Shown piece after piece: positions 13,910 to 51,337 of a DNA stretch of 64,000 bases. The stretch comes from a beta proteobacterium MWH-UniP1 (GTDB taxonomy: Bacteria > Pseudomonadota > Gammaproteobacteria > Burkholderiales > Burkholderiaceae_A): contig CP143625.1 in NCBI GenBank assembly GCA_036362785.1, positions 1,737,401-1,801,400 on the forward strand, written 5' to 3'. The position numbers were made by a program, and so were the translations under genes. How positions within the stretch are numbered: the first letter of the stretch is position 1; each line of letters opens with the position of its first letter. Under the pieces are notes generated by a model that worked only from the letters and a program-made list of their open reading frames with translations, ran no database searches and had not been told where the DNA came from.

Positions 13910-15238
13910 ATGCTTAAACACAGCAGCCAACTATCGGCCAACCGTCGTCGCTTTCTCGCCGGCATGGCGGCACTGCCCATTGCGGGGGCCGTCACCACCA
14001 CACCAAACTCTGCCAAAGCCGCTATCAAAACCGGTGCACGCATTGTGATTGTTGGGGCCGGTGCAGCTGGCCTAACGGCTGCCGCCCGACTCTCTAGCCA
14101 GCTAGATGGCGCCACGATCATTTTGATCGATGGCCGCAAGGAACACCATTACCAGCCTGGCTACACACTGATTGCGGCAGGCATCAAGCCCCGCAATTAC
14201 AGTGTCTCCAACACTGCGGATTACATCCCCAAAAATACCCAATGGATTTCTGAGCGGGCCCGCGAGATCGATCCCGACGCCAAAAAAGTTGTCACCGAAT
14301 CTGGCCAGACGGTGGCCTATGATTTTCTGATTTTGTCGTCTGGGCTTGAGCTGAACTACGGCGCAATCGAGGGCATGGACACCAGTCTGATTGGCCAAAA
14401 CGGGCTGGGCAGTGTCTATAACGGGCCCGATGGCGCGCTGGCCACATGGCTGGCCATGTCTGAGTTTTCCAAAAAAGGTGGTGTGGGTCTTTTTGGTCGG
14501 CCCCTTGGCGAAATGAAGTGCGCTGGTGCCCCACTGAAATACACCTTTATTACCGATGATCGCCTGCGCCGGGAAAACCAACGCGGCAAGGCCGAGTTGA
14601 TTTACATGGCACAAAACACCACCTTGTTTGGTGTGCCCATCGTGTCAGAAAAGGTGCGCATGCTGTTTGTGAATCGTGGCGTGAAGGTGAACTACGACCA
14701 TGTGCTCACCGCGATTAATCCCAGCAAGCGAATTGCCACTTACCAGACACCCAAAGGCAAAGTGGAACAGGGCTATGACTTTATCAATGTGGTGCCGCCC
14801 ATGCGGGCACCAGAAGTCATTCGCAAAAGCCCCCTGCCGTGGACGGATGGCCCCAATGCGGCAGATGGTTGGGTAGAAGCCGATAAGGCCACGCTGCGCC
14901 ACCTGCGTTACCCCGAAGTGTTTGCCGTGGGCGATGTGGCGGGTGTGCCCAAAGGCAAAACTGCTGCCAGCGTGAAATGGCAGGTGCCCGTTGCCACCGA
15001 CCACTTAATTGCGGATATCACCGGCAAGGCATCGACATCGAAATACGACGGCTACACCTCTTGCCCGCTGATCACGCGGCTAGGCCGGGCCATGCTGATT
15101 GAATTCGATTATCACAACAACCTGATTGAGTCCTTCCCCGGCATTGTTGCGCCACTGGAAGAACTCTGGGTGAGCTGGGTCATGAAGACCATGGCGTTAA
15201 AGCCCACTTACATCAGCATGCTGCGCGGCCGCGCCTAA
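13910..15238 (+). CDS. Tat-exported FAD oxidoreductase, sulfide:quinone oxidoreductase-like
   Basis: A 442-residue flavoprotein with a twin-arginine signal (NRRRFLAGMAALPIAGAV), an N-terminal FAD-binding GAGAAGLTAA, and the SQR-type stretch EHHYQPGYTLIAAG. Two cysteines lie where SQR enzymes have their redox pair: Cys204 (EMKCAGAPLKY) and Cys385 (SCPLITRLGRAML); AVGDVAGVP is the second FAD motif. The enzyme probably oxidises sulfide or a related sulfur compound and passes electrons to quinone at the membrane. Cys in the third position of classical SQRs is not seen, so this may be a less studied SQR subtype or a flavocytochrome-like relative. GGGAGA precedes the ATG. Confidence 0.8.
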   Translation: MLKHSSQLSANRRRFLAGMAALPIAGAVTTTPNSAKAAIKTGARIVIVGAGAAGLTAAARLSSQLDGATIILIDGRKEHHYQPGYTLIAAGIKPRNYSVSNTADYIPKNTQWISERAREIDPDAKKVVTESGQTVAYDFLILSSGLELNYGAIEGMDTSLIGQNGLGSVYNGPDGALATWLAMSEFSKKGGVGLFGRPLGEMKCAGAPLKYTFITDDRLRRENQRGKAELIYMAQNTTLFGVPIVSEKVRMLFVNRGVKVNYDHVLTAINPSKRIATYQTPKGKVEQGYDFINVVPPMRAPEVIRKSPLPWTDGPNAADGWVEADKATLRHLRYPEVFAVGDVAGVPKGKTAASVKWQVPVATDHLIADITGKASTSKYDGYTSCPLITRLGRAMLIEFDYHNNLIESFPGIVAPLEELWVSWVMKTMALKPTYISMLRGRA

Positions 15239-15622: not shown

Positions 15623-18235
15623 TCAGTACTGCTTGGCTACCGCCTGCCGTGCTGCCGTGGCAATCCAGTGGGCGCTGATACGGAATTCATCGCGAAGGCT
15701 CGCCCGGGTATCACTCTTGCCAAAACCATCGGTGCCCAGCGTTTGATATGGTGCGCCCACATAGGCGCGAATCATCTCCGGTAGCGCACGCACATAATCT
15801 GACACGGCAATGACTGGCGCCGCACTTGATTGCAGCATCTGCGTGACCCAGGGCGTTGTTACGGTATCACCCTGCAGTATTGCTTGCTCACATCGCATGC
15901 CATCTCGGGCCAGCTCGCTGTAACTGGTCACACTCCAGACCTGAGCCCGGATACCGTGCTCACGCTCAAGCTGCTCTGCGGCCGACAAGGCCTCGGCCAA
16001 GATCGCCCCAGACCCAAGCAGCCGAACATCAGGGTTTTCTGCTTGCCGCACGCAGTGCATGCCACGCAAAATGCCTTCCCGCGCGCCATTGGGCATGCTG
16101 GGCTGCGCCTGGTTTTCGTTGGTTACAGTGATGTAATAAAAAACATCATCGTGCTGCTGACCCATGCGGTGCATGCCGTCATCAATAATTGTGGCAAGTT
16201 CATAGGCATAGGCGGGATCGTAAGAAATACAGTTCGGCACAGTTGATGCCATTAACAAGCTGCTGCCGTCTTGGTGCTGCAAGCCTTCCCCAGCCAAAGT
16301 CGTGCGGCCAGAAGTTGCCCCAATCAAAAAGCCCCTGGCCCGCTGATCGGCTGCGGCCCAAATTAAATCGCCCACCCGCTGAAAGCCGAACATGGAGTAG
16401 TAGATGTAAAAGGGCATCATGGGGAGCCCATGCACGGAGTAACTGGTAGCGGCTGCCGTCCACGATGCCAATGCGCCGGCTTCCGAAATGCCCTCTTCCA
16501 GAATCTGGCCGTCTTTGGCCTCGCGGTAATACAGAATTGAGCCAATGTCTTCGGGCTCGTACAACTGCCCCTGCGCCGAATAAATACCCACTTGTTTAAA
16601 CAGATTGGCCATGCCAAATGTTCGGGCCTCGTCGGCAACAATCGGCACCACATGTTTGCCGAAATCCGGTGCCTTTAAAAGATTGCCCAGCATGCGCACC
16701 ATGGCCATGGTGGTGGACATTTCTTTTCCGTCAGCCTGCAGGGCAAACTGGGCATGAGATTCCATGGATGGCACGGGAAGTTGGCCAGGCGCATGCGGCC
16801 GACGCGGCATAAAACCACCCAAAGCCGCGCGCCGCGCTAAGAGATGCTGCATCTCGGGGCTTGATGCCTCTGGCTTATAAAACGACAGTGACGCTACCTG
16901 CGCATCGGTGAGTGGCAGATGGAAACGATTACGGAATTCAAGAAGATCTTCTTGGTCGATCTTTTTCTGCTGATGCGTGGTCATACGGCCTTGGCCGGCT
17001 TTGCCCATGCCAAAGCCTTTTTTGGTCTGGGCCAACACCACCGTGGGGCGGCCCTGGTGCTGCGAAGCCGCCAGATACGCCGCATAGATCTTGCGCATGT
17101 CATGTCCGCCACGCTTTAAGCGGTCAATCTGTTCATCAGTGAGCGATGCGCCAATGGCCTGAAGTGTCGGGTTCTGGCCAAAGAATTTCTCGCGATTAAA
17201 GGCGCCATCATTGGCGGCAAAGGTCTGCAACTGCCCATCTGGGGTGTTGGTGAGCGCCCGTATCAATTCCCCCGACTGATCGCGTGCCAAAAGCGGATCC
17301 CAGTCCGATCCCCAGAGCAATTTGATGACATTCCAGCCCGCGCCCTCGAACAAGGTCTCCAGCTCATCCACAATGTGGCCATTGCCGCGAACCGGGCCGT
17401 CTAAACGCTGCAGGTTGCAATTGATCACAAAGATCAAGTTGTCGAGCTTTTCACGCGCGGCCAGCGACAAGGCTGCGAGTGATTCGGGCTCATCCATCTC
17501 GCCATCACCAAAAATGCCCCAGACTTTTCTGGGCTGCTGTGCAAGCAGACCACGGTGTTCCAAGTAACGCATGAATCGCGCCTGATAGATGGCAGATATG
17601 GGCCCCAGCCCCATGGAGCCCGTGGGGAACTGCCAGAAATCCGGCATCAGCCACGGGTGCGGATACGACGACAACCCCTGTATCCCCTGGCGTTTGGCCT
17701 GAATTTCGCGGCGATAGAACTCCAGGTTTTGCTCGCTGAGTTCACCCTCTAAAAAAGCCCGCGCATACACACCCGGCGCTGAGTGCGGCTGAAAGAAGAC
17801 CACGTCACCAGCAGACTGCGCATTGGGTGCATGGAAAAAATGATTAAAGCCCACCTCAAACAAATCGGCGGCCGATGCATAGCTAGCAATATGGCCACCG
17901 AGTTCTGTCGACAATTGATTGGCCCGCATGACCATGGCCAGGGCATTCCAACGCATGATGCCTGCGATGCGCTCTTCGATCTGCAGCGCAGTGGCGCCAC
18001 CGGGGTATGGCGGCTCTTGATCGGGGGCAATGGTGTTGATGTAAGGCGTATTGCGCGGCCGCTGCCAATTCACACCCAGGGACTTCGCGGTTTTATAGAC
18101 CTCGCTGATTAAAAATGCGGCACGCTCTGGCCCCGCATTGGCAATGACCGATGCCAATGCATCGCGCCACTCTTGGGTCTCCGTCTGATCGGGGTCCAGC
18201 ATCTGGGCGATGAACCCCTGGTTCGACATGTCCAT
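15623..18235 (-). CDS. aceE: Pyruvate dehydrogenase E1-type (homodimeric, AceE family), orphan
   Basis: An 870-residue homodimeric 2-oxoacid dehydrogenase E1. The thiamine-diphosphate motif starts at GDGEMDEPES (from about residue 243) and ends with VINCNLQRLDGPVRGNG; DGAFNREKFF and VPIVADEARTFGM are also typical. The ATG at 18233-18235 follows GGGAG at a proper distance; the frame extends further upstream but without homology. It decarboxylates a 2-oxoacid and passes the acyl group to a lipoyl E2. No E2 or E3 gene lies in the window. The divergent Lrp/AsnC regulator recalls the Pseudomonas mdeR-mdeB arrangement, where the E1 homologue acts on 2-oxobutyrate, so a substrate other than pyruvate is possible. 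Confidence 0.9.
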   Translation of the reverse strand: MDMSNQGFIAQMLDPDQTETQEWRDALASVIANAGPERAAFLISEVYKTAKSLGVNWQRPRNTPYINTIAPDQEPPYPGGATALQIEERIAGIMRWNALAMVMRANQLSTELGGHIASYASAADLFEVGFNHFFHAPNAQSAGDVVFFQPHSAPGVYARAFLEGELSEQNLEFYRREIQAKRQGIQGLSSYPHPWLMPDFWQFPTGSMGLGPISAIYQARFMRYLEHRGLLAQQPRKVWGIFGDGEMDEPESLAALSLAAREKLDNLIFVINCNLQRLDGPVRGNGHIVDELETLFEGAGWNVIKLLWGSDWDPLLARDQSGELIRALTNTPDGQLQTFAANDGAFNREKFFGQNPTLQAIGASLTDEQIDRLKRGGHDMRKIYAAYLAASQHQGRPTVVLAQTKKGFGMGKAGQGRMTTHQQKKIDQEDLLEFRNRFHLPLTDAQVASLSFYKPEASSPEMQHLLARRAALGGFMPRRPHAPGQLPVPSMESHAQFALQADGKEMSTTMAMVRMLGNLLKAPDFGKHVVPIVADEARTFGMANLFKQVGIYSAQGQLYEPEDIGSILYYREAKDGQILEEGISEAGALASWTAAATSYSVHGLPMMPFYIYYSMFGFQRVGDLIWAAADQRARGFLIGATSGRTTLAGEGLQHQDGSSLLMASTVPNCISYDPAYAYELATIIDDGMHRMGQQHDDVFYYITVTNENQAQPSMPNGAREGILRGMHCVRQAENPDVRLLGSGAILAEALSAAEQLEREHGIRAQVWSVTSYSELARDGMRCEQAILQGDTVTTPWVTQMLQSSAAPVIAVSDYVRALPEMIRAYVGAPYQTLGTDGFGKSDTRASLRDEFRISAHWIATAARQAVAKQY

Positions 18236-18255
18236 GTTTTGCTCCCACGCAATGC

Positions 18256-18276
18256 CAGCCCCGGTCGCCGGGGCTG
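18256..18276 (-). promoter_or_regulatory. Perfect 9-bp hairpin in the aceE leader
   Basis: CAGCCCCGG-TCG-CCGGGGCTG is a perfect inverted repeat with a 3-base loop, ending about 20 bp before the aceE ATG and just upstream of its ribosome site. In the transcript it forms a very stable hairpin that could attenuate, protect the 5' end or sit as an operator. Confidence 0.55.
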
Positions 18277-18277
18277 C

Positions 18278-18297
18278 TGTTGTTTGAATAAACAACA
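18278..18297. promoter_or_regulatory. 20-bp palindrome, candidate Lrp/AsnC operator
   Basis: TGTTGTTT-GAAT-AAACAACA is a perfect 8-bp dyad one base away from the G+C hairpin, in the divergent region between aceE and the Lrp-type regulator gene. An A+T-rich, symmetric site of this size fits Lrp/AsnC operators. Autoregulation and control of aceE is the natural hypothesis. Confidence 0.5.
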
Positions 18298-18394
18298 CGA
18301 TATGGGAACTCGGCCAGCAGTTGATGCCAAAAAACCTTTAATTTCTGTTTTTTAAAGCATAAAATGCCGAACAAATACTTTTAAATCGAATCTT

Positions 18395-22452: not shown

Positions 22453-24059
22453 GCGGACTTGCCTGGGCCCAGCATTTAATTCTGCTGCCGATAGTGCTGC
22501 CGCTTCTTGCAGGTGCGCTGCTGATTACCGTGAACGAGGCACGGCATGGCCTGAAATTTGCAGTCAATCTGGGCTGCAACATGCTGTTGCTTGTCTTCGC
22601 CGTGGCGCTCTTTTGGAAAACGGACCTCGAACTATGGCCCGGCCCGATGGGCGTGTATTTGGCGGCCAACTGGATTGCGCCATTCGGCATTGCGTTGGTG
22701 GCCGACCGACTTGCGGCCCTGATGCTGGTGCTCACGGCAGTCTTGTCGATTTGTGTGCTCATTTTTTCGTATCGGGGCTGGGGCCGCATTGGGGTGCATT
22801 TCCACTCACTGTTTCTCTTCATGCTCATGGGGATTAATGGCGCATTTTTAACCAATGACTTATTTAATCTCTTTGTGTTTTTTGAAGTCATGCTGGCGTC
22901 TTCTTATGGCCTGGTGCTGCACGGCTATAACGTCACACGGATTCGGGCAAGCCTGCAGTACATCGCGATTAATTTGTTGGCTTCTCTTTTATTTCTAATC
23001 GGCATTGCCCTGATCTATGCCAGCACCGGCACACTCAATATGTCGGACCTTGGGCCACGGGTTGCAGCGATTGGTGCCGCTGATCTTCCGCTACTGCAAA
23101 CCGGTGCGTTGATTTTGGCGCTGGCATTTCTAACCAAGGGCGCGGCGTGGCCTTTGGGCTTTTGGCTACCCACCACCTATTACGCAGCATCGCCACCGGT
23201 TGCGGCCATGATGGTGCTGATGACCAAGGTTGGCATTTACGCGATTGTGCGGGTCTGGTCTTTGGCTTTTGGCCATGGGCCGCTAGATGGGTTCTCACTT
23301 GATGCGCTGTTTTGGGTGGGTCTGATCACGCTGGTATTCGGAAGCATTGGCATGCTGGCCAGCGAGCAGGCCGGAAAAATGGCAGGCTACGCCGCCATTA
23401 TTTCTTCGGGCACCTTGATGGCTGTGGTTGGAACCAACCAGACCACACTCTTAACCGCGGGGCTTTATTACCTGGTGGGTTCGACTCTGGCCACTGCTGC
23501 GTTTTTGCTGCTTGCCGGATTGATTGAACGGATTCGCACACCGGGTTCTGCACTGCTGGCACTCAGTATGGAAGCCTTTGCCATTGAAGAAAAACCCGAA
23601 GAGCCAGTGGGGGTTGGTATCCCAACGGCGCTTGCTTTTCTTGGGCTTGGTTTTGCGGCCTGCACGCTTGTGATGACTGGTCTACCACCGCTATCTGGTT
23701 TTATTGCAAAGTTCAGCCTGTTTCACACCCTGCTTGAAGCAGAGCCAGCCGTTGCCCATGAGGCTTGGCTTTTTATCGGTTTAATTCTGGTCTCAGGTCT
23801 GACTGGCATTATTGCCATGATGCGGTTTGGTGTGCGCACCTTTTGGGCATCCGGCAGTATTCAGGCGCCAAGCCTGCACCTGAGCGAAGTGGCCCCAGTC
23901 AGTGCGCTGATTGCGATCTGCATCGGCATGACCATCTTTGCGGGCCCGCTTTTTGGCTACCTAGACCGCGTTAGTCATGATCTGGCCCTGCCCGCAAATT
24001 ATGTGGAACGCGTTCTATCCACCCCGGCTGTACCAGGGCCGGCAGGAGTAAAGCCATGA
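22449..24059 (+). CDS. mrpD: Mrp antiporter subunit D
   Basis: A 536-residue NuoN/NuoM-like subunit. Visible: LVADRLAALMLVLTAVLS, LTNDLFNLFVFFEVMLASSY, and KGAAWPLGFWLPTTYYAASPPVAA, the conserved Lys-bearing helix of the antiporter family. The C terminus has several extra helices. It is coupled to mrpC and mrpE through 4-bp ATGA overlaps. Confidence 0.95.
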   Translation: MSGLAWAQHLILLPIVLPLLAGALLITVNEARHGLKFAVNLGCNMLLLVFAVALFWKTDLELWPGPMGVYLAANWIAPFGIALVADRLAALMLVLTAVLSICVLIFSYRGWGRIGVHFHSLFLFMLMGINGAFLTNDLFNLFVFFEVMLASSYGLVLHGYNVTRIRASLQYIAINLLASLLFLIGIALIYASTGTLNMSDLGPRVAAIGAADLPLLQTGALILALAFLTKGAAWPLGFWLPTTYYAASPPVAAMMVLMTKVGIYAIVRVWSLAFGHGPLDGFSLDALFWVGLITLVFGSIGMLASEQAGKMAGYAAIISSGTLMAVVGTNQTTLLTAGLYYLVGSTLATAAFLLLAGLIERIRTPGSALLALSMEAFAIEEKPEEPVGVGIPTALAFLGLGFAACTLVMTGLPPLSGFIAKFSLFHTLLEAEPAVAHEAWLFIGLILVSGLTGIIAMMRFGVRTFWASGSIQAPSLHLSEVAPVSALIAICIGMTIFAGPLFGYLDRVSHDLALPANYVERVLSTPAVPGPAGVKP

Positions 24060-29744: not shown

Positions 29745-29770
29745 AAAAGGCCTGGTTCCCCAGGCCTTTT
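29745..29770 (-). terminator. rpoD terminator hairpin
   Basis: A perfect 11-bp stem, AAAAGGCCTGG-TTCC-CCAGGCCTTTT, lies three bases after the rpoD stop codon. With flanking A and T runs it reads as a terminator; only four T follow on the minus strand, so some readthrough into the tRNA is possible. Confidence 0.75.
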
Positions 29771-51304: not shown

Positions 51305-51337
51305 AAAAAAGCCTGCGACGAACATCGCAGGCTTTTT
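51305..51337. terminator. Bidirectional terminator between panC and terC operons
   Basis: AAAAAA followed by GCCTGCGA (51311-51318), loop CGAACA, TCGCAGGC (51325-51332) and TTTTT. The perfect 8-bp G+C-rich stem with A-run on one side and T-run on the other works on both strands, ending panC on plus and terC plus the microprotein on minus. Confidence 0.9.

Follow-up and report, generated by a model that had tools for sequence, protein, structure and literature searches.

A probable shared control region between an orphan 2-oxoacid dehydrogenase E1 gene and a divergent Lrp-type regulator gene, with operators distinct from its perfect palindromes

The 159-bp gap between the start of an E1 gene (18235, minus strand) and that of a divergent regulator gene, lrp (18395, plus strand), probably serves as a control region for both: the regulator, of the Lrp type and local in action, and its likely target, an orphan 2-oxoacid dehydrogenase E1. 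The circuit is probably real, but of an ordinary kind. Within the window, by which we mean the whole 64-kb stretch of DNA that was analysed, the initial annotation had singled out two perfect palindromes in the aceE leader as an operator for the Lrp-type regulator, possibly combined with an RNA hairpin. Candidate operators of the expected type could indeed be located by phylogenetic footprinting, at other sequences within the same gap (Table 1).

Table 1. Features of the E1-lrp locus (window coordinates)
Feature	Position	Strand	Basis or description
E1 component of 2-oxoacid dehydrogenase (homodimeric, aceE-like; TIGR03186 class)	15623..18235	-	profile and structure matches
Shine-Dalgarno GGGAG of E1	18242..18246	-	sequence; E1 ATG at 18235
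G+C hairpin CAGCCCCGG-TCG-CCGGGGCTG	18256..18276	-	9-bp stem, 3-nt loop
A+T inverted repeat TGTTGTTT-GAAT-AAACAACA	18278..18297		8-bp arms, 4-nt spacer
E1 -10 hexamer TATCGT (inferred)	18297..18302	-	conserved TANNNT position
Second, weaker operator GCCAGCAGTTGATGCCAAA	18313..18331		centre 40 bp from main operator
Main operator TAAAGCATAAAATGCCGAA	18353..18371		centre 33 bp upstream of lrp ATG
Lrp/AsnC-family regulator, 158 aa	18395..18871	+	PF01037 and HTH_AsnC matches

The E1 protein matches E. coli PDH E1 structures over its full length and reaches 1468 bits against TIGR03186 ('AKGDH_not_PDH'; curated cut-off 1408), which places it in this class, while the housekeeping AceE of the same genome, with which it shares 53% identity, remains under that cut-off at 1305 bits. 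The name that the database gives to the class, alpha-ketoglutarate dehydrogenase, is unproven for the E1 described here. No E2 or E3 gene adjoins the E1 gene in the window, and the second E1 gene of the genome sits elsewhere together with E2 and E3, in a separate aceE-aceF-lpd cluster, so that the earlier description of this E1 as an orphan was right. The divergent regulator belongs to the Lrp/AsnC family: PF13404, PF13412 and PF01037 all score over their cut-offs, corresponding to an N-terminal AsnC-type helix-turn-helix and a C-terminal Lrp/AsnC ligand-binding domain. Against the NCBIfam model PRK11169, the equivalog of the global Lrp of E. coli, the protein scores 124.5 bits, under the cut-off of 233. 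On the far side of the E1 gene, and convergent with it, lies a gene for a sulfide:quinone-reductase-like flavoprotein (13910-15238), whose leader resembles a twin-arginine signal and whose match to the type III SQR selenoprotein model stays well under the cut-off.

In close relatives, a divergent E1 gene is found directly beside the regulator gene in 77 of 80 loci, whereas the other neighbours vary from locus to locus. That the Lrp and E1 genes stay paired while their surroundings differ is one point in favour of a control circuit in the gap between them. Such pairs are apparently widespread in beta- and some other proteobacteria and little-studied. Within the genus of the window their distribution is patchy, the pair being present in one of six other genomes, some of them incomplete. 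In Pseudomonas taiwanensis (L090, 1763-3085) an E2-like gene follows an E1 gene of the same class, which means that orphan status is not universal among such E1 genes.

The footprinting set comprised the E1-lrp gaps of 82 non-redundant orthologous loci. The element conserved among them is a 19-bp palindromic Lrp-type site with the consensus TTCAGCATNNNATGCTGAA, less perfect than the flagged palindromes. Scored leave-one-out against dinucleotide shuffles, it was significant (p <= 0.05) in 80 of the 82 regions, with a mean score of 18.3 versus 0.2; leave-one-out scoring is the only guard on these figures, as the sequences scored were those that had first brought the motif to notice, and the orthologues share descent, so that the counts are not independent. 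The operator centre mostly precedes the lrp start by 33, 36 or 41 bp, additional copies precede it by about 2-11 bp and 73-82 bp, and inter-site distances cluster at 30-31 and 40-41 bp across the orthologues, indicating helix-phased multiple sites of the kind expected for the Lrp/AsnC family. In many distant relatives (L083-L099), a third operator lies over the lrp start codon itself, which suggests tight autoregulation.

Under a model from which the window had been left out, the main operator scored 23.4 and ranked first in the 64 kb, the next match reaching 14.5; its core GCATAAAATGC is invariant in seven orthologues. The second operator is a moderate match only (11.1, rank 4 in the 64 kb with the same model) and falls in a conserved block of the operator-anchored alignment. 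The runner-up in the window, at 22468-22486, close to where a gene for a cation antiporter subunit begins, is probably coincidental. Elsewhere in the genome, operator-like sites were sought with a short, restricted pattern; those inspected scored at most 16.6 and for the most part fell within long reading frames, as one would expect if the regulator acts locally.

The two flagged inverted repeats do exist at their described place in the aceE leader, separated by one base, although the A+T element, presented as a 20-bp palindrome, is an inverted repeat of 8-4-8 architecture whose GAAT centre is not self-complementary. Perfect stems with a minimum length of 8 bp and loops of 3-8 nt number 16 across the 64-kb window, where shuffles led us to expect 5.3; with the minimum set at 9 bp, the count is seven versus 1.1 expected. 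As stems of 8 bp or longer are thus about three times commoner than in shuffles, the flagged stems stand above chance without being unique: each is moderately rare and their side-by-side pair unusual, yet stems of such length are unexceptional in the window. Their sequence is present as a single copy in the genome, giving no sign of a repeated element. Among the other stems of the window are a perfect inverted repeat in the early E1 coding sequence (18135-18160; 9-bp arms GCATTGGCA/TGCCAATGC, 8-nt loop) and two long perfect stems of 13 and 11 bp with A-/T-rich ends (51306-51337 and 29745-29770), which resemble bidirectional terminators.

Conservation separates these palindromes from the operators. 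Neither was found in the only genus relative that carries the locus, and this relative is without about 37 bp of leader, G+C hairpin included. Among orthologues, 8 of 81 and 5 of 81 match the two palindromes better than 95% of shuffles do, which is about the 5% expected by chance, whereas in the same like-for-like test the window's main operator attains 56 of 81 and its second operator 28 of 81. Given these chance-level matches and the genus relative, we rejected the palindromes as conserved operators; as far as comparison of sequences can tell, both are outside the conserved control machinery. Of the original proposal, Lrp-type operator control has thus found support in the footprinting, while the identification of the palindromes as the operator has not. 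Phylogenetic footprinting had itself been suggested at that stage, with lack of conservation in orthologous regions named as the refuting outcome for the palindromes, and this is the outcome obtained. Stem lengths across the leaders of all orthologues are close to those of shuffles; in three distant Burkholderiales (L097, L098 and L103) the E1 leader does contain a perfect G+C-rich stem, 7-8 bp long and different in sequence.

When the orthologues are aligned on the main operator, 76 of 77 carry an E1-strand TANNNT at 60-61 bp from its centre, with about one expected. We infer that this block is the -10 element of E1, which would put the transcription start near 18290 and yield a leader of about 55 nt in the window versus 18 nt in the genus relative. 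Counted from this start, the centre of the second operator would fall near -32 and that of the main operator near -72. A -35 element of the E1 promoter was not recognisable, and a sigma-70 scan of the intergenic region gave no full promoter at the scan threshold. This geometry, with no evident -35 element, suggests that the regulator may activate E1 rather than repress it.

The inferred start also bears on the palindromes. The A+T repeat would span about -7 to +13, its outermost base coinciding with the invariant T of the -10 element; as the start would lie inside the repeat, the repeat would not be wholly transcribed and could form no hairpin in the leader. Of the two palindromes, the G+C hairpin alone may be part of the transcript, as a leader insert that is lineage-specific among the genomes examined, and the Shine-Dalgarno sequence would be about 65% unpaired in a transcript starting near 18290. 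The idea that the palindromes exert control as RNA hairpins accordingly found no support, in view of the probable position of the one and, among these genomes, of the lineage-confined occurrence of the other.

A modest function of the G+C hairpin, as a terminator-like or mRNA-stabilising stem of the E1 leader with neutral or minor effect, is nevertheless a realistic if tentative possibility, and one compatible with control by the Lrp-type regulator. About 14 nt would separate the stem from the 5' end of the mRNA, and it was scanned as terminator-like on the plus strand, where antisense transcripts coming out of E1 could be terminated by it; however, its T tail is interrupted, terminator-like matches number one against 0.5 expected in shuffles, and the hairpin is not conserved among orthologues. 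We regard it as unlikely that the insert of about 37 nt, with its strong G+C stem-loop, adds lineage-specific control at the RNA level (stability or translation) atop the conserved Lrp-type control.

It is still less likely, to the point of being improbable, that the A+T palindrome is itself a lineage-specific operator, be it of the Lrp-type regulator or of another protein. Its good inverted repeat straddles the inferred E1 start, where a repressor could act, but it is unlike the conserved operator, finds no matches beyond chance in the genus relative or the other orthologues, and has in its outer base the conserved -10 T, which explains that base otherwise. Least probable of all is a structured E1 leader in which two hairpins and a closing helix hide the ribosome site for riboswitch-like or translational control: a 75-nt leader does fold as a three-way junction with a nearly fully paired ribosome site (-36.8 kcal/mol, z -5.8) and ranks first in degree of structure among 82, but this fold is common to no orthologue and requires transcription to begin upstream of about 18312. 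The conserved -10 element points instead to a start near 18290; a transcript beginning there would lack one hairpin as well as the closing helix, and its ribosome site would be free. With longer flanks the closing helix is not significant, 261 of 500 shuffles folding as well, and with this loss and the conflict with the -10 element we rejected the three-way-junction switch. An Rfam scan gave weak sub-threshold matches over the leader and none at gathering score, the sole match of that rank in the window being a tRNA elsewhere.

The Lrp-type control circuit could then operate as follows. Regulator dimers would bind the 19-bp TTCAGCATNNNATGCTGAA sites, located by conservation, about three or four DNA turns apart on one face of the helix. 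The main operator would cover the likely lrp promoter and so allow autoregulation, while the second would occupy the place of the E1 -35 element, from where the regulator might activate E1 on sensing an amino acid or the corresponding 2-oxoacid, much as MdeR responds to methionine. The A+T palindrome would be the DNA surrounding the E1 transcription start, and the G+C palindrome a private stem-loop of the leader with a minor role at most, for example in mRNA stability. For a pair of Lrp-type regulator and E1 this amounts to an operator model that can be put to the test, since sequence, spacing and promoter position are all specified, and that would help to assign both the ligand of the regulator and the substrate of the E1 class; it also illustrates that the operator of a promoter is not necessarily its most perfect palindrome.

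The operator resembles that of E. coli Lrp, as its consensus core CAGCATNNNATGCTG fits the consensus yAGhAwATTwTdCTr (PMC5554404), and the two regulators share the Lrp/AsnC fold and phased clusters of sites; E. coli Lrp, however, is a global regulator, whereas the one described here appears local. Site clusters on the same face of the helix are typical of the family, with reported spacings of two or three helical turns (PMC2995911). The 40-41 bp seen here would equal four. By sequence, the closest solved structure is the Lrp/AsnC protein 2p5v/2p6s/2p6t, presumably the regulator of Neisseria meningitidis, which has the same domain layout at moderate similarity only and for which we know of no control of an E1 gene.

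Closer parallels in gene arrangement come from Pseudomonas putida, in which Inoue et al. reportedly described MdeR with the mde operon in 1997. This operon includes mdeB, a homologue of pyruvate dehydrogenase E1, so that there, too, a local Lrp-family regulator is divergent from the genes it controls, an E1 homologue among them; the comparison is one of arrangement, not of MdeR sequence. In P. putida, regulator and E1 are separated by the methionine gamma-lyase gene mdeA, whereas the E1 gene here is directly divergent from the regulator gene and stands alone. No methionine gamma-lyase gene was found beside E1 or lrp, the one strong Cys/Met PLP-enzyme match of the genome being about 310 kb away, and we therefore do not file the locus as an mde operon. 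BkdR of P. putida, also of the Lrp family, is divergent from a 2-oxoacid dehydrogenase operon, but the products of bkd make up an entire branched-chain complex, in which E1 has two subunits, whereas the E1 here is a single aceE-type chain without E2 or E3. A literature search for E1-Lrp pairs brought up nothing usable beyond these two, both of which are Lrp-family regulators divergent from their own targets (PMC8707732). MdeR with its mde operon is the nearest described arrangement to the locus presented here, and BkdR is a second parallel.
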